Below are positions 1,959 through 27,248 of a stretch of DNA of 64,000 nucleotides, in pieces (the first letter of the stretch is position 1; each line of letters starts with the position of its first letter). The notes below the pieces were generated by a model that worked only from the letters and a program-made list of their open reading frames with translations, was not told the DNA's origin and ran no database searches. A program made the position numbers and the translations under genes. Location: NCBI GenBank assembly GCA_937872895.1, contig CALMUP010000019.1:62001-126000 (forward strand), written 5' to 3'. The stretch comes from an uncultured Verrucomicrobiota bacterium. GTDB lineage: Bacteria; Verrucomicrobiota; Kiritimatiellia; CAIVKH01.

Positions 1959-4746
1959 CCTCGTTTACCACCCGCTGCTGCTGCTTCTGCTGTGCACGCT
2001 GCCGTATGTCGCGCTGCTCGGCCTGCACCTGCACGCGTTCGACCTGGTGCGCGGCGAACTGGACGCGGAGGGACGCGGTGCCCACGTGACCGTATTCGCT
2101 TTGCTGGGCGGGCTGATCCTGGTGTCGTCGGCGCTCGGCGGCTGGATCTGGAGGACCGGACGCCGGGTCAACGTTCCGGTGGCCCTGCTGCTGTTCGGCG
2201 CGGGGTTCGGGTACCTGTGGATATTCATGCTCTTGGCCGAGGATCTGGTCCCGCGTTCGGTCGGGGCGTGGATGCTCTCGATCGACGAACTCGGCTACAA
2301 CCACCTGTCCCTGGTCGCACCCTCGTTGTTCTACGCCCTGGTGCTGCTGGCGGGTACGCCGGTCGCGGCGATGGGCAAGCGCGACGCGGTGTTCTCGGCC
2401 AGCGTGGTTATCGCCATCCCGCTGTTCTGGGCCGTGATCGCGCAGGCGATCTTCGCCATCAACTGGGATGTCGACCTGCCGGCATGGCTGCTCGCCTTCA
2501 TGATGTTCATGATGACCGCGATGATGCTGCTCGCGTTCCTGCGCATGCTGCTCCACCTGCACCGATGGCTCGGCGGCATGGCCATCCTGCCCGTGCTGGC
2601 CGGTCTGGTGTTCCCGCTCGCCGGACTGGCGCTGAACGCGGCGATCCCGTTCCCGAGCGACCTGCAGGATCCGCGGGTGTATCTGTTCACCGCGATCAAC
2701 GGCCTCGCCCTGTGCCTGCCCGCCTTCACCCCGGCGTGGATCGTTCCAGTGTGGTTCCTCCGCGTGGCATTGTTTCCGTTCACGATCTACTTCTTCATCC
2801 TTTTCCTTCCGTTCCTGCCGCTGTCGATCCCGGCGATGATCGTCATGGGCGCGGGTTTCCTGATCCTCGCCCCGACCCTGCTGTTCGTCGTACAGGCCCA
2901 GCGGATCGTCTCCGAGGGCATGGCCATCGCCCTGGCCCGGGGCTTCTGGCGCACCTTCGCCCTGCTGCTGCTCGGACTGGCCATCGTCCCGGCCGGTTAC
3001 CTGGGCCGGGCCTGGTGGCATCGCCACGCCCTGGAGCAGGCGATCAACGCGGTGTATGCGCCGGATTTCGCGGTGGCCGATCCGGGCATCGACACGCGCA
3101 GCGCGCTGGCGGCGCTGGAGCGCTTGCGCGCGATGAAGGAGGGCATCTACACGCCGCTGCTGTCGGAGATCTATGATACGGTGGTGTTCGGGGGCATGGT
3201 CCTGCCGGATCACAAGATCGAGGAGATGCAGCGACGTTTCGGTGTCGACCCCAAGCTGGAGCCACCGCGCAGCCGCACCTTTGAATTCTTCAACTTCACC
3301 GGCTCCCGCAACCGCCGGGCGAACTGGTCGCAAGTGCGTCCCGTGCCACGCGACGTCGTGCTGGCCGATGTAGCGGTGCAGGCAACCACCAACGCCACGC
3401 TGGTGGAAAGCGAGGTGGTGGTGACCATGACCAACCGCGGCGAACGCGATGCGGAATACCTGGCGGCGATCCGGGTGCCGGAAGGGGTCGCGGTCAGCGG
3501 GTACTGGCTCGACGTCGAGGGTGAACGTGTCGAGGGACGCATCTTCGATCGCAAGACCGCGCTGTGGGTATTCCACATGATCCGGGACCGGACGCGGCGC
3601 GATCCGGGCATGATCCATTACGTGAACAACGACACGCTCGAGTTGCGCGTGTTCCCGTTCGCCTCGGCCCAGACCCGCACCTGTGCGATCCGGTTCCTGT
3701 ATCCGCGCGGACTGTCGGCGACGGTGACCATCGGCAGCCGCGACGTTCCACTCGGCGAAGGTGAAGGCACGGGCGTTGTCGCCGCGGGCGCGGGCCTGTT
3801 GGTGCCACCGGACCACGGAATGCCGGTGACGGTCCGAACCCCCTACCTGCATCTGCTGGTGGATGCCTCGGCGGCGGCGATCGACGTTCTACCCACGGTT
3901 GAAGCGCGGATTGCCGAGCTGCTCGAACGTGCACCGGAGGTGAAACACCTGCGCATCGACCTCGTCAACCACGCGACGCGCCCGGTGTCCGCGACGATAC
4001 TGGACCGCGCGAACTGGCGCGATGCCTGGCGCGCGGCGTTGGCGAAGACCAAACCGTCGGGTGGTTTCTGGCCGCAGCGGGCGATCAACCATACGGTCTT
4101 CACCCACGCGCGGTCCGACGAGCGGCTGGCCACCGTGCCGGCCATCGTGGTCATCGGCGCCAAGCCGGCCACGTGGGACGAACACGCCTTGCTGCCCGAA
4201 CATGCGCCAGACATCACGGTGGCGGCCATCGACGCGGCGACGCCGCCGATGCCTGCGCCAACGGTGGTGTTGCGCCGGGGCGACGCGATGGCGTGGATGG
4301 ATCACGCCCGCGGCGGCTGGATGGTCCTGCCGGGCGAGGGTGACGTGGAGGTCTATGATCCGGTCGCGGCGGCATGGACCCCGGTGAAGATCGACGTGCG
4401 CCTGCTCCCGGATTCGCGGTATGCGCAATGGGCCGGCCTGCGGGCGATGGAACACGCGATGGCATCGCGGCCGGCCGGAGCCGAAGCGCTGCGCGGGCGG
4501 GTCCTCGAAACCAGCCGCGAACACGGCCTGCTGTCACACCACACCGCGTTCATCGTGGTCGAGAATTCCGCACAATGGAAGATGCTCGAGCGGAAGGAAA
4601 AGGAGGCGCTCAAGGCCAACCAGGCCCTCACCTTCGACGAGTTCCAGGAAACCCACGTCACCCCCGAACCGGCGGTCTGGCTCATGCTCCTCCTGCTCGC
4701 GCCACTCGCGGTGTGGCGGTGGCGCGTAAGGAGTTCGGCCACCTAA
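1927..4746 (+). CDS. VIT-domain multi-spanning protein with PEP-type C-terminal sorting signal
   Basis: 939 residues. The start at 1927 has a GGAGG site 9 bp upstream. Residues 1-365 hold about eleven hydrophobic helices. Residues about 478-600 form a VIT (vault/inter-alpha-trypsin) domain, with YLAAIRVPEGVAVSGYWLDV and DPGMIHYVNNDTLELRVFPF typical of it. The C-terminus reads VTPEP (about residue 911-915), then one hydrophobic helix and a basic tail RWRVRS, the tripartite sorting signal. This is the expected substrate of the exosortase encoded just upstream. The combination of an N-terminal membrane bundle, a VIT domain and a terminal sorting signal matches the MSEP-CTERM and XrtN-VIT type substrates. 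Its biological role is unknown. Confidence 0.8.
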   Translation: MNTETKRLLPDLVYHPLLLLLLCTLPYVALLGLHLHAFDLVRGELDAEGRGAHVTVFALLGGLILVSSALGGWIWRTGRRVNVPVALLLFGAGFGYLWIFMLLAEDLVPRSVGAWMLSIDELGYNHLSLVAPSLFYALVLLAGTPVAAMGKRDAVFSASVVIAIPLFWAVIAQAIFAINWDVDLPAWLLAFMMFMMTAMMLLAFLRMLLHLHRWLGGMAILPVLAGLVFPLAGLALNAAIPFPSDLQDPRVYLFTAINGLALCLPAFTPAWIVPVWFLRVALFPFTIYFFILFLPFLPLSIPAMIVMGAGFLILAPTLLFVVQAQRIVSEGMAIALARGFWRTFALLLLGLAIVPAGYLGRAWWHRHALEQAINAVYAPDFAVADPGIDTRSALAALERLRAMKEGIYTPLLSEIYDTVVFGGMVLPDHKIEEMQRRFGVDPKLEPPRSRTFEFFNFTGSRNRRANWSQVRPVPRDVVLADVAVQATTNATLVESEVVVTMTNRGERDAEYLAAIRVPEGVAVSGYWLDVEGERVEGRIFDRKTALWVFHMIRDRTRRDPGMIHYVNNDTLELRVFPFASAQTRTCAIRFLYPRGLSATVTIGSRDVPLGEGEGTGVVAAGAGLLVPPDHGMPVTVRTPYLHLLVDASAAAIDVLPTVEARIAELLERAPEVKHLRIDLVNHATRPVSATILDRANWRDAWRAALAKTKPSGGFWPQRAINHTVFTHARSDERLATVPAIVVIGAKPATWDEHALLPEHAPDITVAAIDAATPPMPAPTVVLRRGDAMAWMDHARGGWMVLPGEGDVEVYDPVAAAWTPVKIDVRLLPDSRYAQWAGLRAMEHAMASRPAGAEALRGRVLETSREHGLLSHHTAFIVVENSAQWKMLERKEKEALKANQALTFDEFQETHVTPEPAVWLMLLLLAPLAVWRWRVRSSAT

Positions 4747-4886: not shown

Positions 4887-6884
4887 CTAGTAGCCGAGCG
4901 CGGTGAGGCCCTGGTAGGTGACGAGGGCGGCGGTGTAGGCGAGTGCGGTCATGTATCCGAGCTGGAAGAGGGGCCATTTCCACGAGTTGGTTTCGCGGCG
5001 GGTGGCGGCCTGGGTCGGCAGGCATTGCATGGCGAGGACATAGAAGACGAGCAGGCTGAGGCAGGCCGGCAGGGTGAACACGGGGCGGCCGTCCGGATGG
5101 GTGGCGCGGCGCATCGCGTCGTAGAGGCTTTCCGAATTCTCCTCGGCGGTGTCGGCACCGAGGCCATAGACGACGGAGAGGGTGGAGACGATGACCTCGC
5201 GGGCGGCGAAGGAGGTGATGATCCCGACGCCGATCTGCCAGTCGAACCCGAGCGGGCGCACGACCGGCTCGATGATCTTGCCGAGGCGTCCGGCAAAGGA
5301 GTTTTCCAGGGCATCGCGCGCGGTCAGGTGGTCGGCCGCGGCGTGCCGGGACGCGGCAGCTTCGGTTTCGCCGGCGGCGGCGAGGGCTTCCGCTTGCGCG
5401 ATCAGCGCGGTTGCGGCGGCGGGCGGGGCGTCGGTCTTCGGGAAGGTGGCGAGCACCCAAAGGCCGATGGAGATGACGAGGATGATGGTGCCGGCCTGGG
5501 CGACGAACACGCGGGCGCGGTCGTAGGTGAACAGCAGCGCGGTGCGCAGGCCGGGGATGCGGTAGCCGGGGAGTTCGAGGACGAGCGGTTTGCTTTCGCC
5601 GGGCAGGATGGTTTTCTTGAACAGCCAGGCCATGGTGAGGGCGGCGGCGATGCCGAGGCCGTAGGCGCCGGTGAAGAGCAAGGCGGCCTTGGCGGGATCG
5701 TCGGGGAACAGCAGCGCGACGACCATGGCGTAGACCGGGATGCGCGCGGAACAGGTCATCAGCGGGGCGACGAGGATGGTGACGAGGCGGTCGCGCGGAT
5801 CGCGGATGACGCGGGTGGACATGATGGCGGGAATGGCGCAGGCATGCGCGGAGAGCAGCGGCACGAAGGCGGTGCCGGGCAGGCCGATGCGGCGCATCAG
5901 GCGGTCCATCACAAAGGCGGCGCGGGCGAGGTAGCCGCTGTCGTCGAGCAGGGCGAGGAAGAAGAACAGGATGCAGATCTGCGGAAGGAAGATCAGGATG
6001 CCGCCGACGCCGGCGATCACGCCATCGACCAGGAAGCTCCGGAAGTCGCCCTCCGGCACGTGCGCGGCGACCCAGCCGCCAAGCGAGGCGAACAGCGCAT
6101 CGATCATGTCCATCGGCACCGAGGCCACGCTGAAGATCAGGTAGAACACCGCGAGCATCACGGCGAGGAAGGCGGCGACGCCGACCACGGGATGGGTCAG
6201 CACCGCATCGAGCTTGTCGGTCTTCCGTTCCCTGGCCACCCGCGGGGCCTTCACACAGCCGGCGGAAACGCGGTCCGACCAGTTGTAGCGGGCCTGGAAC
6301 GGGCAACCGGAGCAGCCGCTGCAGCCGGTCGGCGGCGGGACGAGGGCGACGCGTTCGGCGGGCGGGCGGGCCAGGGCGTCGGCGATGGCGGCCTTGAGTG
6401 CATCGATGCCGCGCCCTTCGCTCGCCACGGTGGGAATGACCGGGCAACCGATTTCGCGGGAGAGGCTGGCGGGATCGACGGTGATGCCGTGGCGTTCGGC
6501 GAGGTCGATCAGGTTCAGGGCAACGACGACCGGGAGTTCGCGTTCGATGAGCTGGCTGATCACGAACAGGCTGCGCTCGAGGTTGTTCGCGTCGGCGAGG
6601 ACCACGGCGAGATCGGGGCGTCCGACATCGCGGGCACGACCGGCGAGGACATCGGCGGTCACTTGTTCGTCCGCGGTCGCCGCAGTCAGGCTGTACACGC
6701 CGGGGAGGTCGAGGACCTCGACCACGCGGGGGCCGAGCTCGACCAGGCCGAGCTTCAACTCCACGGTGGTTCCGGAAAAGTTGGCGGTGCGGGCGCGCAG
6801 TCCGGTCAGCGCGTTGAACAGGGTGGTTTTGCCGGTATTCGGACTGCCGATCAGGGCGACGAGCGGGCGCGGGACGGCGATCAT
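4887..6884 (-). CDS. feoB: Ferrous iron transport protein B
   Basis: 665 residues. It imports Fe(II) across the inner membrane. The N-terminal G domain shows G1 GSPNTGKT (13-20), G3 DLPG (59-62) and G4 NLID (124-127). A short cysteine cluster, CSGCSGC (188-194, plus Cys210), joins it to the membrane part, which carries the Gate motifs, for example HACAIPAIMSTR and CSARIPVYAM. A variable Ala/Glu-rich insertion of about 60 residues sits near residue 480-540 before the last helices. The gene overlaps feoA by 4 bp (ATGA) and is expressed from the feoA promoter. The extra cysteines could bind metal or sense redox state, which is inference. Confidence 0.95.
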   Translation of the reverse strand: MIAVPRPLVALIGSPNTGKTTLFNALTGLRARTANFSGTTVELKLGLVELGPRVVEVLDLPGVYSLTAATADEQVTADVLAGRARDVGRPDLAVVLADANNLERSLFVISQLIERELPVVVALNLIDLAERHGITVDPASLSREIGCPVIPTVASEGRGIDALKAAIADALARPPAERVALVPPPTGCSGCSGCPFQARYNWSDRVSAGCVKAPRVARERKTDKLDAVLTHPVVGVAAFLAVMLAVFYLIFSVASVPMDMIDALFASLGGWVAAHVPEGDFRSFLVDGVIAGVGGILIFLPQICILFFFLALLDDSGYLARAAFVMDRLMRRIGLPGTAFVPLLSAHACAIPAIMSTRVIRDPRDRLVTILVAPLMTCSARIPVYAMVVALLFPDDPAKAALLFTGAYGLGIAAALTMAWLFKKTILPGESKPLVLELPGYRIPGLRTALLFTYDRARVFVAQAGTIILVISIGLWVLATFPKTDAPPAAATALIAQAEALAAAGETEAAASRHAAADHLTARDALENSFAGRLGKIIEPVVRPLGFDWQIGVGIITSFAAREVIVSTLSVVYGLGADTAEENSESLYDAMRRATHPDGRPVFTLPACLSLLVFYVLAMQCLPTQAATRRETNSWKWPLFQLGYMTALAYTAALVTYQGLTALGY

Positions 6885-7177
6885 GGCGTGGCTCCGGCCG
6901 GATCGAGCGGGCAGTCACGCGGCGGACAGGGGGTGACGAGGATGTTCGCGGCGAGGCGCGCCGAGACCCCGACGCGGGTGCCGTACACCTTCAGGATCAG
7001 CGGGTCGCCGACGCGGACCAGCTCGACGGTGCGGCCGCCACACACGCCCATCGCCATCAACCGTTCGAGATCGCTGTCCGGCGCCTCCACACGCACCACG
7101 ATGCCGCACTGACGCGGAGCGAGCTGGTGGACGTACACCGACTGAAAAGACGAGGCGCAAGGCTTGTTGTTAGACAT
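6881..7177 (-). CDS. feoA: Ferrous iron transport protein A (SH3-like)
   Basis: 98 residues from the ATG at 7177 (MSNNKPCASS...). The longer open frame to 7249 runs through the promoter and is rejected. The body, from LAPRQCGIVVRVEAP to RVGVSARLAANILV, is the FeoA SH3-like fold, which docks on FeoB and tunes transport. Cysteines occur at the N-terminus and in a C-terminal CPPRDC tail. It is first in a two-gene operon with feoB. The prophage left end begins only about 63 bp upstream of the start codon. Confidence 0.9.
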   Translation of the reverse strand: MSNNKPCASSFQSVYVHQLAPRQCGIVVRVEAPDSDLERLMAMGVCGGRTVELVRVGDPLILKVYGTRVGVSARLAANILVTPCPPRDCPLDPAGATP

Positions 7178-8258: not shown

Positions 8259-9776
8259 TTACCCGTCCGATGCCGCCAAGGCCGCGTTGGCGGCATAGGC
8301 TCGCAAGGTCCGGGAAATGAGTTCGGCGACGTCGTCGGCCGGTAAATCGGAAAATTGGGCCTGCACCCGGTCCAGGGCCTCATCAGCGCTGGCGCTCGAT
8401 AGGATGATCTCGCGGAACTTGGCGTGGCGCTCGCGGAGCGCCCGCGCCAGTCCCGCGGATGCCCCGCGGGCCACCTCGTCGGCGGCGATCAGGCCATCCG
8501 GAACGGTCGCGTTGTAGATCGAAAGGGTGCGCGGGTTGGGCAACATGGGTTGCGACATCCGCCGCCGCAGACCAATCCCAAGTTGCTCGCTGATGGTGGC
8601 GAGGCCTTCGTCGTCGAGTTCCGCCCCCGCCACATACAGATCCCGCATCAAAGCGCCCAGGCGCGCGGCGCTTTCCGAGGTATCCCCCGGCCACAGGATC
8701 AGCGGCGAATTGCCCTTGATCGAGTTGATGTCCATCCAGGGTTTCACGAGCTGCATGCGGATCGTGTGACCCAGCATCAGCGCATCGAAGTTGCGAATGT
8801 CCTGCCGGACCGTCTCATGCTGCTTCGAGACGCCAGAGCCGAGGCCCGTGGATTGAGCCTCCGCTGAAAGGGTCTGGCCTAAAATGAGTCGGGAAATCTC
8901 CCGGCGGCAGATGGTCAGGAACTTCTCGTAGGCATCGCCCGAGCCGCCCATCGCCTCCTTGAGTTCAACCGTTGTGCCCTCGCTGACCACCAGCCCCCCG
9001 ATCTTCGTCGCCCAGGCCAAGGCGCTTTCGAGCATCACGCGCGAGGCGTCATCGCCGGAGGGGTATTTGGCGACCATAAAGGGCGAGCCATAGCGATCCA
9101 GAAAGCGGGCCCACCAGGAACGATCCATCACTGACAGCAGCCACCAGAACAACAACGAACGCATGGGCCCGCCGAAGTTGTCCGGGAAGGAAAGCAGGTG
9201 GCCGCGATGCACGATGTACCGGTTCATGTCCGGATCCTGGCTGGAAAGCTGGACGCGTCCGTCGGCATCGGTATCGAAAATCCGCATCCGGCCGCTCCGG
9301 TAATCGAGCAGGCGGTGAGGGACGGTGACCAGATCGGCGATGTCGTAACGGATGCCAGCTTGCTGCGAAGGTTGAAAGACCTTTTCGACCAACGAGACCG
9401 GATACAGCGTGCCGTCCAGCAGGTGAGAGCAGCACATGAGGAACGGAATCGAATTGGCCAGCACTTTTTCCACCACATCAGCGGCGTTTTTGTCGTCGGT
9501 GTTTTTCTTGTCGAACGCCTGGACAACCAGCTTGTCGCCGATCACGGCGAGTTTGCGCTTGGACAATTCGGCCTGGACGTGCGAGTCGCCGATCACCATG
9601 TCGCGGTAGATGGTGAACAGGAGTTCGGTGTTGCCCGCCTCGGCCGCGCGTATCGCGGCATGCAGGGTGTCCACGTCCAGGCTGGAACCTACCGATGCTC
9701 GTTCGGTGTGCGACGTGACCACAGTGACGCGGTTGGTCGGAGGCTTCTGGCGATGATAGATATCGGATGTTTTCAT
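8259..9776 (-). CDS. Phage portal protein (Mu gp29-like, DUF935)
   Basis: 505 residues, typical for the family. Recognisable features include ELSKRKLAVIG near residue 70-80, a core around LSFPDNFGGPMRSLLFWWLL and YGSPFMVAKYPSG, the helix ICRREISRLILGQTLS, and a polar C-terminal extension. The portal forms the dodecameric ring at the capsid vertex through which the terminase pumps DNA. The gene follows the terminase nuclease gene by 8 bp in the leftward operon. In Mu the next genes would be F and G; here those lie 16 kb away on the other arm. Confidence 0.9.
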   Translation of the reverse strand: MKTSDIYHRQKPPTNRVTVVTSHTERASVGSSLDVDTLHAAIRAAEAGNTELLFTIYRDMVIGDSHVQAELSKRKLAVIGDKLVVQAFDKKNTDDKNAADVVEKVLANSIPFLMCCSHLLDGTLYPVSLVEKVFQPSQQAGIRYDIADLVTVPHRLLDYRSGRMRIFDTDADGRVQLSSQDPDMNRYIVHRGHLLSFPDNFGGPMRSLLFWWLLSVMDRSWWARFLDRYGSPFMVAKYPSGDDASRVMLESALAWATKIGGLVVSEGTTVELKEAMGGSGDAYEKFLTICRREISRLILGQTLSAEAQSTGLGSGVSKQHETVRQDIRNFDALMLGHTIRMQLVKPWMDINSIKGNSPLILWPGDTSESAARLGALMRDLYVAGAELDDEGLATISEQLGIGLRRRMSQPMLPNPRTLSIYNATVPDGLIAADEVARGASAGLARALRERHAKFREIILSSASADEALDRVQAQFSDLPADDVAELISRTLRAYAANAALAASDG

Positions 9777-9784
9777 GGATTACC

Positions 9785-10477
9785 TCAAAAAAGGTTGGTG
9801 GTTGGGTTCCTGCGACCGGCCACCGGCCAGTGAGCAGGTGCTTTGGTGAACGTTCCGACCGGTGCCGCATGGGCCTCGACGGGGCCGCTAGCAGTTCCGA
9901 TCAAGGCGTGCAGTGCCAGCTTGATGGCGTCGAAGCTGTCCGCGTGGTTTCCTTCCTCGTCGACATCGGCGTCGAACATACCGCGGTCGCGCACCACTTG
10001 ACGGATATCCTTTTCCAGCCAGGTCTCGGGCGGAAGGGCCAGGCGCCCGTCGTCGATGGTGTTGACGAACAGGTTGCCGAGGTAGGTCTTGAAATTCATT
10101 TTCTCGCCGAGATAGGTCGTCGATTCCGACGAGACGACCAGGGCGACTACGGCCGTGCCCATCAACTTGCGGCGGAGATTGGTGGCGAAAAAGCGCTCGT
10201 TGGTTGCATCGATACAAGTCTTTCTCGCGCGGAGACCGTGCGGGAGTTCGTGGGCCTTGCGGATTAATGCCTCGGTGATATCGGGATCGCTGGTCTTGAA
10301 CCGGAGCACCAGGCGGGCGAAGAAGTCGTTGGACACGCGTTGTACGACGGCGATCGCCGAAGGGTTCGACTTCTTTTTCTCCGTAGTGGCCAGGTCAACG
10401 CCGATCCCCACCGGATCACCAGGCGTGATCAGATCCTTCCACCCGCGTGGTATTACGTGATCAACGTGGATACTCAT
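9785..10477 (-). CDS. Terminase large subunit, nuclease half (split gene)
   Basis: 230 residues with an RNase H-fold nuclease: GVDLATT (Asp28), CIDATNERFF (Asp90) and NHADSFDAIKLA (Asp180/Asp183) supply the metal-binding acidic residues. In Mu gp28 this domain is fused to the ATPase. Here it is a separate gene whose ATG overlaps the ATPase gene's stop by 4 bp (ATGA), so the two are probably co-translated and assemble as a heteromer. The frame differs by one from the ATPase, so an old frameshift is a possible origin, but the clean overlap argues for a functional split. Confidence 0.85.
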   Translation of the reverse strand: MSIHVDHVIPRGWKDLITPGDPVGIGVDLATTEKKKSNPSAIAVVQRVSNDFFARLVLRFKTSDPDITEALIRKAHELPHGLRARKTCIDATNERFFATNLRRKLMGTAVVALVVSSESTTYLGEKMNFKTYLGNLFVNTIDDGRLALPPETWLEKDIRQVVRDRGMFDADVDEEGNHADSFDAIKLALHALIGTASGPVEAHAAPVGTFTKAPAHWPVAGRRNPTTNLF

Positions 10478-11370
10478 CGGGCGATCGCCTCCTTCACGTC
10501 CACGCCGAGGCAGAACCCACGCCCCAGTTCCATCGCCCGGGCAAGTGCGGCATACGAAACCGCCGAGATCCCGCCTCGGACAAACTTCAGGCCGTAGTTG
10601 CGGTCCCAGGCGATTTTATCGTAGGCGCGTTTCCGGTGTTCTTCGGGAACGCAGGGCTCGCCGGTATCGTCGTCGTATAGCGGCACACCCGCGGCAGACC
10701 CATCCCAGGCATCGACGCGATGGCACGGGATCTTCGACTTCGACTCGTACCAGTTGCCCTTCGGGTTGATCTGGAACTCCTCAATGGGCGGCAGGAACAT
10801 CTCGAAGCTGTAATGGTTGTCGTCGGGCGGCGGGGTCGTGGCCATCCACCAGATGAACTCCGGGTTTGAGGACATGAAGGGCTGGACGGCCTCGATGACG
10901 TCCTTCAAGTCGAAGATGCGCCCAACCTCGTCCATGAAGATGTCGCCGGTCCAACCGACGGCCGTGGCCGGATTCGGGGCGACAACGATCGATCTGCTGC
11001 AGGTGGTCCGGTCATGCCAGATTTTCGCCTCGAGTTTCTGGTGCTCGAAGATGTCCGCGATTGCGTCGAGGTCAAGGTTGTCGATGTTTGTTTCCAGGCG
11101 GAGTTGTTGCGAGGCGCAGATCTCCCGGAATTTGGCCAGTACGGTATTCCAGACCTGCGCCTCCTTGCGCACAAACTCGGAGCCCAGGAGGATGGAGGCG
11201 GAGACGAAAATACAGGTGTGGTCGCGGCGCTCCATCATCCGATCCAGCGCCTTCGCGGCCAGGGTAAACGACTTCCCGCGTTGCCGCGCCCACATGAGCA
11301 GCACACGCCGGATTTTCTTCCAGAAGACGACTTCCTGGTAGGGCCGGAATTTAATCAGCGGCGCTGGCAT
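10474..11370 (-). CDS. Terminase large subunit, ATPase half (split gene)
   Basis: 298 residues. Walker A-like ARQRGKS (28-34), Walker B with catalytic Glu GDIFMDEVG (142-150) and a coupling-motif region MATTPPPDD mark the packaging ATPase domain. The sequence ends soon after GLKFVRGGISAVSYAALARAM, just where Mu-like terminases pass into the nuclease domain. The 5' end overlaps the small terminase gene by 20 bp. It drives head filling through the portal encoded two genes downstream. Confidence 0.85.
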   Translation of the reverse strand: MPAPLIKFRPYQEVVFWKKIRRVLLMWARQRGKSFTLAAKALDRMMERRDHTCIFVSASILLGSEFVRKEAQVWNTVLAKFREICASQQLRLETNIDNLDLDAIADIFEHQKLEAKIWHDRTTCSRSIVVAPNPATAVGWTGDIFMDEVGRIFDLKDVIEAVQPFMSSNPEFIWWMATTPPPDDNHYSFEMFLPPIEEFQINPKGNWYESKSKIPCHRVDAWDGSAAGVPLYDDDTGEPCVPEEHRKRAYDKIAWDRNYGLKFVRGGISAVSYAALARAMELGRGFCLGVDVKEAIAR

Positions 11371-17959: not shown

Positions 17960-18866
17960 ATTGGTCGAATATAAAGAGTTCCGCATCATGAGGGCGGGTC
18001 AATTGGAACCGCACAAGGACGCTATTTTGCCCACCGGCGATGACGACCGCGAGAGTCTCGATGACAACATCAAGGAAAACGGACCAGCGGTTTGCCTGGT
18101 GATCTCTGCTGTACCCGATAAGGCCACCGGCCTGTATCAAATTCACGACGGCATAACCCGGTGGAAGGCCGTCATCGATCAAGAAGGCCCAGAGGGTAAA
18201 ATCCCCTGCAATCTGGCAGTGGTGAAAGATGCGAAGAAGTTTGCGCTGATCTGTATGTCGATCGGCCGCAAACGCTCGACCGGCCAGCGCATCATGGCCT
18301 TCCTGGAGATGCACCGCAAAGAGGTGCTCAAGGTGGCGGCGATGGTGGCTGGACAGGGTCGGATGTCACAGCAGATTCGGAGCCGTGCCGGTCACGTGAC
18401 CGGCACGGTAATTACAGGGGTTTTGGCCAATTTCACCGCCGAAGCGATCGCGGCGAAGCTGCACGTTTCGGACAAGGATGTGCGCTTGGGCATCGAGTTG
18501 CTCCAGTGCATCGAGCAGAAGCTGACGGCCTCCTGGGATCGCGGCGGGATCCACGTCGCGGGCGAGCCGCTGGACATGGAGAAGGATGACGGCAAGGACT
18601 ACCTGAAGGCGCTGAAGAAAGTCCACCTCGGCCTGCTCGCGGGGTCCACGCCGATCCGGCGCTGGAAGCCCGCGGTGGGCGGCCTGGCAAAAACGGAAGA
18701 CCGTCAGCGCCCCGAGATCAATTACGGAAAGCTCGGCTACAACGCGATCCTCACGATCAAAAACGCGATCAAGCACTGGGACAAGGTGTCATCCACCGAC
18801 AAGCAGAGCATTGCCCGCGTGTGGGAAGAACTGCGCGAGGCGGCGGCGAAGGTGCATCTGGATTGA
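17946..18866 (+). CDS. ParB-like DNA-binding protein carrying a parS-like palindrome in its gene
   Basis: 306 residues from the ATG at 17946 (GAGGGAG site). Residues 10-110 look like the ParB/sulfiredoxin N-terminal domain: ESLDDNIKENGPAVCLVIS and the nucleotide-loop motif IHDGITRW (67-73; the GxxR of ParB). A helix-turn-helix follows (TAEAIAAKLHVSDKDVRLGI, about 165-185), then a helical C-terminal domain. No ParA partner is nearby. The 26-bp palindrome encodes residues 146-155 (RAGHVTGTV), between the two domains. It lies just upstream of the transposase gene, so it may act in transposition or replication control, gene regulation or segregation; all three are inference. Confidence 0.7.
   Translation: MKMDELVEYKEFRIMRAGQLEPHKDAILPTGDDDRESLDDNIKENGPAVCLVISAVPDKATGLYQIHDGITRWKAVIDQEGPEGKIPCNLAVVKDAKKFALICMSIGRKRSTGQRIMAFLEMHRKEVLKVAAMVAGQGRMSQQIRSRAGHVTGTVITGVLANFTAEAIAAKLHVSDKDVRLGIELLQCIEQKLTASWDRGGIHVAGEPLDMEKDDGKDYLKALKKVHLGLLAGSTPIRRWKPAVGGLAKTEDRQRPEINYGKLGYNAILTIKNAIKHWDKVSSTDKQSIARVWEELREAAAKVHLD
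18383..18408. repeat. Perfect 26-bp palindrome, copy 2 (parS-like core)
   Basis: CCGTGCCGGTCAC plus its exact reverse complement, identical to the core at 15665-15694 and centred on TCACGTGA. It lies in frame inside the ParB-like gene, 2.7 kb from copy 1. Confidence 0.85.
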
Positions 18867-23926: not shown

Positions 23927-24244
23927 ATGGCTAAGAAATACAAGGCGATCATCTACGAGCAGGTGGAAGACGGCAAGGGCGGCTACCACCTGCGCCCGGT
24001 CACCACGACCTCGACGGGACTTTCGGTTGATCTCGCCGCGCCCATCCTCCATGTCTCGCGCAATACGGTGTACCGACTCTGCGAGATCGGGGCGATAAGG
24101 GCGGAGTATCCGAGCCCCGGGCGCATCGTGATCCCTCTCGAGGAGTTGATGCGTTACAAGACGGAGACACAGGACCCCGAGCATTTCGAACGACAGATGG
24201 GGCGGCAAATGGATTTTGATTTTGAGGCAAAGGAGGGGTCATGA
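23927..24244 (+). CDS. Excisionase-like helix-turn-helix protein
   Basis: 105 residues from the ATG at 23927; the GTG at 23921 is an in-frame alternative. APILHVSRNTVYRLCEIGAI followed by PGRIVIPLEELMRYK is the MerR/excisionase (HTH_17) fold. In a transposing phage it is more likely a transcription regulator than a recombination directionality factor. Overlaps the next gene by 4 bp. Confidence 0.65.
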   Translation: MAKKYKAIIYEQVEDGKGGYHLRPVTTTSTGLSVDLAAPILHVSRNTVYRLCEIGAIRAEYPSPGRIVIPLEELMRYKTETQDPEHFERQMGRQMDFDFEAKEGS

Positions 24245-24447
24245 ATTGCCAGGCATGTGATGGAACCGGCGACGGACGAAAGTTCGGCGACCGAAACTGC
24301 TCGATCTGCAACGGGTCGGGTTCGGTGTGCGATGTATGCGGGGAAGCGGTGGCCGAGGGCGAGGACGTGTGCGGGGAGTGCGAAGGCGAACGGGAAGAAG
24401 ATTTAACGACAGAGAACGCAAAGAGCGCAGAGGAAGACGGGCGGTGA
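24241..24447 (+). CDS. DnaJ-type zinc-finger mini-protein
   Basis: 68 residues. CQACDGTGDG and CSICNGSGSVCDVCGE are CxxCxGxG repeats like those of the DnaJ central domain, and a fourth CGEC follows, enough to bind two zinc ions. The last residues LTTENAKSAEEDGR come from a CAGAGA-type repeat, the same addition seen on the small gene at 16851. Function unknown. Confidence 0.65.
   Translation: MNCQACDGTGDGRKFGDRNCSICNGSGSVCDVCGEAVAEGEDVCGECEGEREEDLTTENAKSAEEDGR
24402..24432 (+). repeat. CAGAGA-type dispersed repeat, copy 3
   Basis: TTTAACGACAGAGAACGCAA followed by AGAGCGCAGAG. It is in frame at the 3' end of the zinc-finger gene and encodes almost the same peptide as copy 1. Confidence 0.7.
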
Positions 24448-24472
24448 TTTCACTTTACACAGATTTTGATTT

Positions 24473-24623
24473 GGGTACGTTGTCTGGCAGTCCTGCAAAG
24501 ACTTTAGACAATCACTACCGTACCCATCTTGGGCCCGGTGTCGTCCCCTTCGGGGGAACTCTCCTTGTCGAGGGTCTTTGCAGGCGGCACCGGGTCCTCT
24601 TTATATCCGCTCTGCAAAGGCGG
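24473..24623 (+). ncRNA. Candidate structured RNA with kissing loops and alternative pairing
   Basis: This lies in a 209-bp gap in an otherwise gap-free operon. P1: GGGTACG+TTGTCT (24473-24485) pairs with AGACAA (24506-24511) and CGTACCC (24519-24525). P2: 24531-24542 pairs with 24586-24597 over 12 bp with two G-U pairs, and encloses a TCCCC-TTCG-GGGGA tetraloop hairpin (24544-24557). The P1 loop strand CCTGCAAAGAC (24492-24502) is exactly complementary to GTCTTTGCAGG (24574-24584) in the P2 loop, forming a pseudoknot. CTGCAAAG (24612-24619) can compete for the same partner. A ribosome site GGAGGA (24646-24651) follows. Either a cis-regulatory leader of the next gene or a free RNA; no known family recognised. 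Confidence 0.6.
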
Positions 24624-24656
24624 AGGGGGATTCGGGCAAAGCATCGGAGGACAAGT

Positions 24657-24932
24657 ATGATGCTGAACGACCGAGACATGTCCATAACCGGGAGCATTAC
24701 GCTCTCGCCCCACGAATCCGCCGCCCTGGCGGATGCTTGCGCGGCCAAAGCCGTCGCAATCGCCCACGAATGCAAATCCGACGCCGATGAAAGGCGGGCA
24801 TGTTACTACGACCTGCTCGCCGCGTTCTTTCAGTCCATGGCCGTAGCGACGGCACGTGGCATGCACATGCGGCCAGACGACGAAAAGAAAGTCCATGCAT
24901 CACTCAACAATGCCGAGGTGTGTCATGATTAA
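24657..24932 (+). CDS. Small phage protein downstream of the structured RNA
   Basis: 91 residues from the ATG at 24657 or the adjacent ATG at 24660, with a strong GGAGGA site. Helical, Ala-rich (HESAALADACAAKAVAIAHE; YYDLLAAFFQSMAVATARG). No family recognised. It overlaps the next gene by 8 bp and starts the transcript section that may be controlled by the RNA structure above. Confidence 0.55.
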   Translation: MMLNDRDMSITGSITLSPHESAALADACAAKAVAIAHECKSDADERRACYYDLLAAFFQSMAVATARGMHMRPDDEKKVHASLNNAEVCHD

Positions 24933-25458
24933 GTCCATTCAGGTTGAAATTACCGGAACCGCACCACTGCTGATGCACCGGTTCCCGCTGGTTCCCGAAG
25001 ATAACATTAAGAACCAGCCCGCCGAGGTGCAGGCCGAAGCGGTGTGTTACCGCGACGAAGCGACGGGAGAACTCTACCTGCCGGGCATGAACCTGTGGCG
25101 GGCGTTGATCTCGGCGGCGGCGTTTTCCAAGGGCAAGGGACGGGCCAGCCTGCAAAAGCCGGCCGCCGCCTGCCTGCTCGTGACGCCGGAGCGCTTGCTG
25201 CTGGGCACCAAGAAGTTCGTGGTGGACTCGCGGGCGGTGGTGGTGCCCGCGACGAAAGGCCGCGTGGTGCGCCACCGACCCCGGTTAAACGACTGGGGCG
25301 TTACGTTCACGGTGGAGTTTGACGATGCCCTGATGTCAATCAACGACGTCCGCCGCATCGTGGACGATGCCGGTATCCGGTGCGGCGTGGGCGACTTCCG
25401 CCCGGAGACCAAAGGACCGTTTGGCCGGTTTCATGTGGTAACCTGGAGGCCGGAATGA
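24925..25458 (+). CDS. Phage protein with RAMP/Cas7-like features
   Basis: 177 residues from the ATG at 24925. The strand pattern IKSIQVEITGTAPLLMHRFP, the YLPGMNLWRALISAAAF segment, and RHRPRLNDWGVTFTVEFDD then CGVGDFRPETKGPFGRFHVV resemble the RAMP-type (ferredoxin-like) fold of Cas7-like proteins and of related proteins seen in Mu-like phages. It is a single gene with no other CRISPR component nearby. RNA or DNA binding is a guess from fold resemblance. The pentamer arrays begin 8 bp after its stop. Confidence 0.55.
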   Translation: MIKSIQVEITGTAPLLMHRFPLVPEDNIKNQPAEVQAEAVCYRDEATGELYLPGMNLWRALISAAAFSKGKGRASLQKPAAACLLVTPERLLLGTKKFVVDSRAVVVPATKGRVVRHRPRLNDWGVTFTVEFDDALMSINDVRRIVDDAGIRCGVGDFRPETKGPFGRFHVVTWRPE

Positions 25459-25465
25459 TGTAGAC

Positions 25466-25608
25466 TTGGCACGCAGGGGCGGGGCGTTGCTCGGCCAGGC
25501 GAGGCGAGGTTAGGCAAGGCATGGTTCTATTATGACGATGAAAGCCAATTTTAAAAAACCGTCGAGGACAGGCGAGGCGCGGCAAGGCGTGGCCTGGCCG
25601 GGCATGGT
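25466..25608 (+). repeat. Two arrays of NNGGC pentamers
   Basis: Array 1 (25466-25525) is twelve 5-bp units, mostly NNGGC (TCGGC CAGGC GAGGC ...), and array 2 (25564-25608) is nine units (CAGGC GAGGC GCGGC AAGGC ...). Both end in AAGGC/CGGGC then ATGGTT and an AT-rich stretch. They fill the gap between the RAMP-like gene and MuF with period five and no reading frame. A weak hairpin GCCC-TTTAC-GGGC with TTTT follows at 25643-25659. No other feature is seen in this 296-bp gap. Confidence 0.75.
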
Positions 25609-25754
25609 TTTCATTTTCAGCGGCCACACGTCCGGTTTATTTGCCCTTTACGGGCTTTTGGCGGTAGGCCGGGTGTGTGGTCGTCTTTTGGAAAATAATC
25701 GATTCGCCGCATTTCGCGGGCCCCTAAACGCGTTTCTGGAAGGTTGGTGAGGTG

Positions 25755-27248
25755 ATGTTCATAGCGAAACCCATAGCCCATGACGAGGCGGCGGCGGCGA
25801 TCGCCGGGAAGCCAGCCGTAGTCCGGGCGGTGTTTGACCAGCTTTTGCCGGAGCTGAAGGGGTTGGCGTTTACCGTGACCGGCGTCCAGGACGCGAATGT
25901 CCTGCAGCGGATCCGCGACCGGATCGCGGACCTCCCGCGGGGCGGGGATTGGGATGCGATCAAGAAGGACGTGGTCGCGGAGCTTTCGCCGTTCCTGGTG
26001 GATGACGCGGCGGAGCCGGAGGTCAAGGATGCCCAGATCAAGGCGGCGGCGCGCCGGGCGGAGCTGCTGCTCCGGACGCATGGCTACCAGGCGTACCAAG
26101 CGACGGCCTACCGGCAGATGGTCGAGTCGTCCGCGTACCTGCCCTACTGGAAATATCTCACCGTGCGCGATGACCAGGTCCGGGATAGCCACCGGGCGCT
26201 GCACGGTCTCATCCTTCCGTGGGACCACCCGTTCTGGCAGGATCACTTCCCGCCCTGGGACTGGGGATGCCGGTGCCAGGTGATCGCGACAACGGACCGG
26301 GAGTACGAGCAGGCGAAGACGTCGCCGACTGACCAGGCATGGACGCTGGGCCCGGAGGCGCAGAAGCGCCTGGCCGATGGTGTTCTGGACAAAGGTGACG
26401 GTCACCCGGTCAACGTACCATCACCCCGCCTCAGGGCGATGCGGGCCAGACTGGACCCGAACACGGCGTATGCGTGGAGGCCGGGAGACGTGGGGATTCC
26501 CATCGACCAGATCAAGGCCCGGTATGATGATAAGACGTGGGCGGCGGTCGGGAAGATATTTGAACCCTCCTTCGCCAAGGCTTCGGCGGGCAGGCAGAAG
26601 GGCACAGAGGACACAGAGACAAGACTTCCGAAAGCGGTGACGGTCGATGGAGGCGATGTGCCGGAGCCGGTGAAGACGGTTAATAAAGATGACGCCATTG
26701 ATCGCCTGAAGGCGGCGGGCGCATCCAAGGTGTCGGTGGAGATCGGAGAGGTTCTGCCCGAGGCGTCCGTCAAACGACTTGAAGAGGCCATCCGCTGGTT
26801 GCGAGAACGGAACCTTCCGATTCCTGTGCAAATCACCTTTGATAGCGCGATGACCAAAGAGCTGGCCAAGAAGGAACTTGAAAAGGCCGTTCTGGTTTAC
26901 AACCCCGAGGTGGATGTCGTTTACGTGGATGCCATCCACTACCTGCTGATCAACGACGGCGTCATCATCACGGCAAAAAACAAGGGGAATATTTCCACGG
27001 ACAATCCCCACCATCACTTCCTTCACGAGTCCGCTCATCCATTGCACTGGTTTGCCGCGCGAACATCTTTTAATATGACTCTCACCAATGAACAGAGAGC
27101 GATTGCCTATGCGTTCGTCAGCAAGCGCGCGGCCATGAACGCCGCCGAGTTCGTTGCGGAAGTGTACGCGGCACTGAAGTCCGGGCGTACATTCCCGCCA
27201 GAAAGTCGCGTCATGGATGTGTATGCCAAATTGGGAGGTCCGCGATGA
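25755..27248 (+). CDS. MuF-like minor head protein fused to a C-terminal HExxH domain
   Basis: 497 residues from the ATG at 25755 (GTG 25752 also possible). Residues 1-260 are the Mu gpF domain, with DDQVRDSHRALHG (about 138-150) and PPWDWGCRCQVIA (about 171-183). A linker around residues 270-290 is made of a dispersed repeat (PSFAKASAGRQ then GTEDTET). The C-terminal domain (about 330-497) holds HESAH (about 424-428), a zinc metallopeptidase signature, with a later Glu in AAEFVAEVYA. MuF proteins often carry toxin or enzyme domains here that are packaged in the head. The small cysteine protein downstream may be its partner. Confidence 0.8.
   Translation: MFIAKPIAHDEAAAAIAGKPAVVRAVFDQLLPELKGLAFTVTGVQDANVLQRIRDRIADLPRGGDWDAIKKDVVAELSPFLVDDAAEPEVKDAQIKAAARRAELLLRTHGYQAYQATAYRQMVESSAYLPYWKYLTVRDDQVRDSHRALHGLILPWDHPFWQDHFPPWDWGCRCQVIATTDREYEQAKTSPTDQAWTLGPEAQKRLADGVLDKGDGHPVNVPSPRLRAMRARLDPNTAYAWRPGDVGIPIDQIKARYDDKTWAAVGKIFEPSFAKASAGRQKGTEDTETRLPKAVTVDGGDVPEPVKTVNKDDAIDRLKAAGASKVSVEIGEVLPEASVKRLEEAIRWLRERNLPIPVQITFDSAMTKELAKKELEKAVLVYNPEVDVVYVDAIHYLLINDGVIITAKNKGNISTDNPHHHFLHESAHPLHWFAARTSFNMTLTNEQRAIAYAFVSKRAAMNAAEFVAEVYAALKSGRTFPPESRVMDVYAKLGGPR
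26566..26623 (+). repeat. Dispersed repeats inserted in frame in MuF (copy 4)
   Basis: A CCTTCGCCAAGGCTTCGGCG element (encoding SFAKASAG) is followed directly by a CAGAGA-type unit, AGAAGGGCACAGAGGACACA then GAGAC. Both keep the frame open and fall in the linker between the two MuF domains. Confidence 0.7.

Follow-up and report, generated by a model that had tools for sequence, protein, structure and literature searches.

Experimental knowledge of phage immunity mediated by RNA comes from a handful of systems in enterobacteria, i.e. C4 of P1/P7, CI of P4 and IsrK of Gifsy. Termination in P4 is caused by the CI RNA, which has one pairing partner upstream (seqA) and another downstream (seqC) (PMC4825925). 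C4 is a phage antisense RNA located upstream of its target gene and has variable specificity loops, a' and b' (PMC5320573). IsrK of the Salmonella prophage Gifsy-1 is a terminated small RNA (sRNA) whose target in trans is its own read-through mRNA (PMC4825925). Here, we describe an RNA element of a Mu-like prophage, residing in a window of 64,000 nucleotides (contig CALMUP010000019.1, positions 62,001 to 126,000) from an uncultured Verrucomicrobiota bacterium of the class Kiritimatiellia; all features named below lie on its + strand. Comparison of six loci shows that a noncoding gap of 209 bp (24448-24656) specifies a conserved phage leader RNA, in which a central antisense strand (S2) is predicted to pair alternatively with a sense strand in an upstream loop (S1) or in a downstream loop (S3). 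This leader RNA is previously undescribed.

As in the P4 immunity system (seqA - CI/seqB - seqC), the antisense strand lies between complementary sequences upstream and downstream on one phage transcript, with a putative link to premature termination, and the window RNA, placed in the early operon of a Mu-like element, belongs to a temperate phage. There are also differences: no sequence or structure match between CI and the leader RNA was detectable, the leader has a long terminator-like hairpin (P2) with a branched interior, and both the host group and the downstream genes are other ones. C4, in turn, comprises three stem-loops in ~77 nt and is released by RNase P, its a'/b' loop arrangement is unlike that of the leader, and the Rfam covariance model of C4 gave no match in the window region or the six elements at E-values up to 10. 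With IsrK, the leader would share the production of a short terminated sRNA and a read-through mRNA from one transcript, self-complementary and trans-acting; however, no homology was found, and IsrK opens a ribosome site to activate translation, whereas the ribosome site of the leader is equally accessible in both predicted folds.

Covariation of the three strands and the hairpins

In the window, S1 (CCTGCAAAGAC, 24492-24502, core 24493-24499) is the exact reverse complement of S2 (GTCTTTGCAGG, 24574-24584, core 24577-24583) over 11 nt, a perfect inverted match that arises in 2/300 shuffles, and S3 (CTGCAAAG, 24612-24619) matches the same S2 segment. Both pairings had been pointed out in a previous reading of the window (hereafter, the sequence-only reading), which had also proposed a search for compensatory changes in homologous gaps. 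Such changes were found in the 11-bp helix, in the third strand and in P2. The cores (S1/S2/S3) are CTGCAAA/TTTGCAG/CTGCAAA in the window, and in the five relatives CGGCAAA/TTTGCCG/CGGCAAA (G064), CGGCAAG/CTTGCCG/CGGCAAG (G072), CGACCAA/TTGGTCG/CGATCAA (G047), CCGCAAA/TTTGCGG/CCGCAAA (G144) and CCGACAA/TTGTCGG/CCGACAA (G073). All core cells are paired, both in S1:S2 (42/42) and in S3:S2 (42/42, with one wobble), at most three pair types occur per position, and the S3 core equals the S1 core within each member, save for the wobble in S3 of G047. For the full strands (11-13 nt), the members' own duplexes have a mean energy of -19.3 kcal/mol, compared with -9.7 kcal/mol for swapped ones, and the observed duplex total was reached by the true assignment only (1 of 720 permutations). 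The strands were located by eye, which calls for caution, and the swapping between genomes controls for this choice.

The hairpins around these strands change as well. In P2 (24531-24597; X, 24531-24543, paired with X', 24585-24597), double changes were observed in 6 of the 9 tested pairs with 98% of cells paired across the six members, and in P2a (24544-24557, inside P2) in 2 of 4 pairs with 100% paired, on an alignment fitted to a model that already contained every P2a pair and, for P2, 8 of the 9. None of 500 shuffles matched this covariation. A MAFFT alignment of three members, in which the 3' strand of P2 was misplaced, was not used for pair counts. Among three members, both sides were altered in 5 of 6 pairs of the small hairpin P2b (24558-24575), counted on an alignment fitted to the structure. 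The stem of hairpin P3 (24606-24624), whose arms in the window are TCCGC/GCGGA (24606-24610/24620-24624), also changes between members (CTGG/CCGG, CCAG/CTGG, GCTGG/CCAGC and TCTGG/CCAGA) yet pairs in 6/6 by inspection. A second competing pair, formed by X' with the stretch after P3 (X'', 24622-24636), is only suggestive and less well supported than the others, as its own total was reached by 14 of 720 permutations, with G072 and G047 at chance level. The G-U pairs in P2 and in S3:S2 fit the + strand as the RNA.

No homologs were found with BLAST (blastn queries of the window, or of two relatives, yielded nothing useful among phage records), an exact-pattern scan of IMG/VR gave no match, and no Rfam family matched the window region or any of the six elements at E-values up to 10, in agreement with the sequence-only reading, in which no known family had been recognised. 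A covariance model built from the window sequence alone (R1) weakly matched two further genomes of this class, G072 (per-genome E of 2.6e-4) and G064 (E 0.08), values that are by themselves insufficient across 338 genomes. Beyond the edges of this model, the U tract and the P3 hairpin recur at both loci, whose S1 and S3 strands each match the local S2. A second model (R2), built from G072 and G064 only, with the window excluded, recovered the window at E 2.1e-9 and revealed three new members: G047 (E 5e-20), G144 (E 3e-12) and G073 (E 4e-10). Recovery of the window is partly circular, because R1 selected the parents of R2; independent tests are provided by G047, G144 and G073 and by the S1 strand, which lies outside R2. 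R2 matches with E above 0.004 (further ones had E 0.005-0.1) were not accepted. The resulting six loci belong to genera of one class and their distribution is sporadic (3/24 and 2/24 of the close relatives searched). A weak match of the first single-sequence model in G205 (L132) was not accepted, and a 27-bp match in G064 and a peptide match in G561, both inside unrelated genes, were set aside as chance.

Architecture and genomic position of the leader

The gap is flanked by a small zinc-ribbon gene (24241-24447) and an open reading frame (ORF) starting at 24657. It had been described as gene-free, and codon statistics bear this out (GC3 of 0.54 vs 0.67-0.86 in the adjacent genes). An N-terminal coding extension from GTG 24444 was considered and rejected: its frame, which shares the phase of the downstream gene, is open but has a codon usage at the level of shuffles and carries stops in the relatives G144 and G064. 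The host element was identified as a Mu-like prophage by a Mu transposase with its C-terminal domain, a Mu-B-like AAA protein, DUF3164 and a Mu F-like protein.

Within the gap, hairpin P1 (24472-24526) consists of an outer stem of 8 bp (24472-24479/24519-24526) and an inner stem (24480-24485/24506-24511, TTGTCT/AGACAA), and shows S1 in its loop; an inner stem of the form GTC(T)/(A)GAC or GTTC/GAAC is present in 6/6 members. P2 follows, with P2a capped by a UUCG loop (CCCC-TTCG-GGGG) and S2 placed directly 5' of X'. Next come a U-rich tract (24598-24606; CTCTTTTTGTA in four relatives, CGCTTTTGTA in G073, weaker in the window), P3 with S3 in its loop, and the Shine-Dalgarno sequence GGAGG (24646-24650) ahead of ATG 24657. 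Thus, the two hairpins with the UUCG tetraloop and the ribosome site downstream of the third strand are present as the sequence-only reading had placed them, the third strand having a hairpin loop of its own. The 131-nt P1+P2 core has a z-score of -5.45 against dinucleotide shuffles, none of which was equally stable, and the individual hairpins have z-scores of -4.3 (P1) and -3.9 (P2). In a scan of the operon by 150-nt segments, the gap was among the more structured regions, though not unique; the most structured 150-nt stretch within 17-36 kb (18276-18425, z -5.1) is located just upstream of the transposase gene.

Two global folds of the gap RNA are nearly equal in energy, one with P1+P2 (-91.0 kcal/mol) and one with a long S1:S2 helix (-91.3 kcal/mol), and in minimum-energy folds of the growing transcript P1+P2 is best until position 24640. 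The predicted accessibility of the Shine-Dalgarno sequence is 0.59 in both folds, so a simple translation switch is not supported, and neither is the earlier hint that the third strand masks the ribosome site. The S1:S2 pairing, previously read as kissing loops, covaries in 6/6 members; since the complement of 11-13 nt takes in the 3' arm of P1, S2 can invade P1, and the pairing is likely more than a loop-loop kiss. An HDV-like ribozyme (nested double pseudoknot, P3+P4, catalytic C), which had already been dismissed, remains so, as there is no Rfam match and the conserved pairings differ in topology.

All or nearly all of the RNA elements lie in phage regions. Their neighbours encode an integrase and a DnaB helicase (G073), a Mu-B-like transposition protein (G144), a tape measure protein and a DnaC-like loader (G064), a DnaC-like loader (G047) and a tail-fibre-like protein (G072). 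A ribosome site and a start codon then follow every element at a near-constant distance, the start codon being 130-138 nt past the model start in five members and ~128 nt, by reading, in G073. The downstream proteins comprise 54-206 aa. The prophage-like region of G072 (L134) in which the RNA copy lies also encodes, at 9651-10532, a 293-aa protein without a phage-family match, by impression only possibly the capsid protein of an unusual phage.

A putative antisense switch and its alternatives

We give an even chance to the favoured reading, in which the leader is a phage antisense-immunity or attenuator switch acting on the downstream genes, P2 being the terminator and S2 the antisense strand. 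The operon would often be transcribed no further than P2, yielding an RNA of ~130-150 nt that exposes or releases S2. On newly made transcripts of the same phage type, S1 and S3 may then be the targets of this antisense RNA, whether in cis or in trans, and the downstream genes (in the window, a VIPR anti-phage module) would be kept limited in the lysogen and at superinfection by the same phage. The joint changes of S1, S2 and S3 give every phage type an address of its own, as a determinant of immunity specificity should have. Because the polymerase reaches S3 only past the U tract, S3 cannot take part in a classical cis attenuation decision, which favours a role in trans, on read-through or superinfecting transcripts. 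Several points weigh against such a switch. In the window, the U tract (CTCTTTATAT) is weak, and a simple terminator scan did not flag P2, the loop of which is large and branched. Only six members, from one class, were found, and the genes behind them are mutually unrelated, none being a known antirepressor or kil gene. Finally, S1 and S3 might be the alternatives of a riboswitch-like device working in cis.

That last possibility, a leader acting in cis only (a transcription attenuator responding to a ligand or to ribosomes, with S2 contested by S1 and S3 within one transcript and no trans RNA involved), would agree with the near-constant position ahead of the start codon, the two nearly equal folds and the terminator-like P2. 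We consider it unlikely, though worth keeping in mind, because S3, made past the U tract, has no influence on termination by the same polymerase, no conserved unpaired ligand-pocket sequence was seen, the strands vary freely while matching, unlike riboswitch cores, and the Shine-Dalgarno sequence is equally accessible in both folds. It is less probable still that the element is a stand-alone structured sRNA directed at other targets, its matching strands serving only its own fold; the compact fold, the long-range pairing and the stable P1+P2 core are in line with this, but S3 lies beyond the terminator, covaries too and keeps a near-fixed distance from the ribosome site. Repeats in alternating orientation that change together between phages also recall the sites of a phage repressor, i.e. 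an operator at the DNA level, which appears very improbable given that the stems of P2, P2a and P3 covary independently, that the G-U pairs of the + strand would correspond to A-C mismatches on the opposite one, and that the spacing fits RNA hairpins and a U tract.

As the window copy is followed by an operon that forms a VIPR locus (Vipr protein with vrRNAs; preprint PMC13142463), the gap RNA might be a component of that system, such as an upstream guide or scaffold. Its place immediately ahead of the vipr operon is one that vrRNAs take in SUSP1 and LESphi2, and the sister phage L010, whose Mu-B-like protein is 86% identical, has neither the RNA nor the module. Nevertheless, this explanation is largely refuted and highly improbable: the gap lacks GGY/NN periodicity (3/8 units at best, the real vrRNAs being found at 25468-25620) and does not encode a vrRNA, nor are the relatives of its RNA linked to VIPR, no vipr gene having been reported in the five homolog genomes as far as class/phylum searches covered them. 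The absence of both RNA and module from L010, together with the absence of any match to the gap RNA in ~30 other vipr loci, argues for a phage leader and not a part of VIPR. A hammerhead, known from some VIPR arrays, was also considered for the gap and rejected, as it had no Rfam match.

Going beyond the antisense switch itself, we tentatively suggest, as something rather less probable than the switch, that the element represents a new family of phage antisense-immunity RNAs, sequence-unrelated to C4 and CI, in which one strand faces two identical competitors, each phage has its own address, and the window phage uses the leader to gate its VIPR weapon. A sequence-unrelated, covariation-backed sense-antisense-sense RNA in prophages of another class would show that this design is general or has arisen repeatedly, and the six natural address variants in hand provide ready-made specificity tests. 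Its position ahead of the VIPR module would be a first lead on the control of such phage weapons and, if true, one RNA address system (the leader) would control another (the RNA-guided VIPR).

The VIPR module behind the window copy

The genes behind the leader constitute a VIPR RNA-guided anti-phage system, composed of a Vipr protein and two guide RNAs, which had gone unrecognised in the sequence-only reading. The first ORF (24657-24932, 91 aa) has no family match and no homolog of it was found; it occupies the place of an accessory gene (vap). It is overlapped by vipr (24925-25458), encoding a RAMP-fold Vipr protein that matched SUSP1 Vipr (PDB 36pp) with E 9.8e-10, or 2e-55 when a profile was used. 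An alignment-based AlphaFold 2 model of this protein reached a pLDDT of 88, and its best Foldseek matches were CRISPR Csm and type VII RAMP chains; the single-sequence AlphaFold model was poor. The guides are vrRNA1 (25468-25524), built of tandem GGY/NN units, and vrRNA2 (25561-25685), with units at 25561-25605 and a long tail hairpin (~25620-25685) that ends terminator-like. By definition, vrRNAs have 9-16 YNNGG (GGY/NN) tandem repeats and a 3' tail; the guides found here have ~9-11 units, including degenerate ones, and 0.05 such guides beside vipr are expected per strand by chance. No convincing natural DNA targets of the vrRNAs were found under the 1-nt-skip rule in the window, its own genome or IMG/VR: the best window matches were not outliers, and exact matches in IMG/VR, one of them inside rpoD, look like chance.

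In this phage group, a variable cargo slot (24380-25779 in the window, 5406-5872 in L010) separates the early genes from the Mu F-like gene, and neither vipr nor guide arrays are present there in other Mu-like relatives (L124-L129). The closest relative of the window Vipr (50% identity over aligned residues) is located in L045 (IMGVR_UViG_3300041809_001880), where it is followed, at 3585-3650, by tandem TGC-NN units (TGCCA TGCCG TGCGG AGCAA AGCGA TGTAC TGCAC...) and not GGY-NN, possibly a variant guide consensus. In L006 (G003), the gap upstream of vipr (~6577-6890) contains a strong inverted repeat, TTGCTTGGACTGCGGAAGCGA ... TCGCTTCCGCAGTCCAAACAA, by its appearance a miniature inverted-repeat transposable element (MITE) or a genomic repeat. 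Long, partly staggered vrRNA arrays adjoin the vipr genes of further uncharacterised phages, at 4340-4541 in L007 (G120), 3613-3922 in L051 and 3586-4311 in L048.
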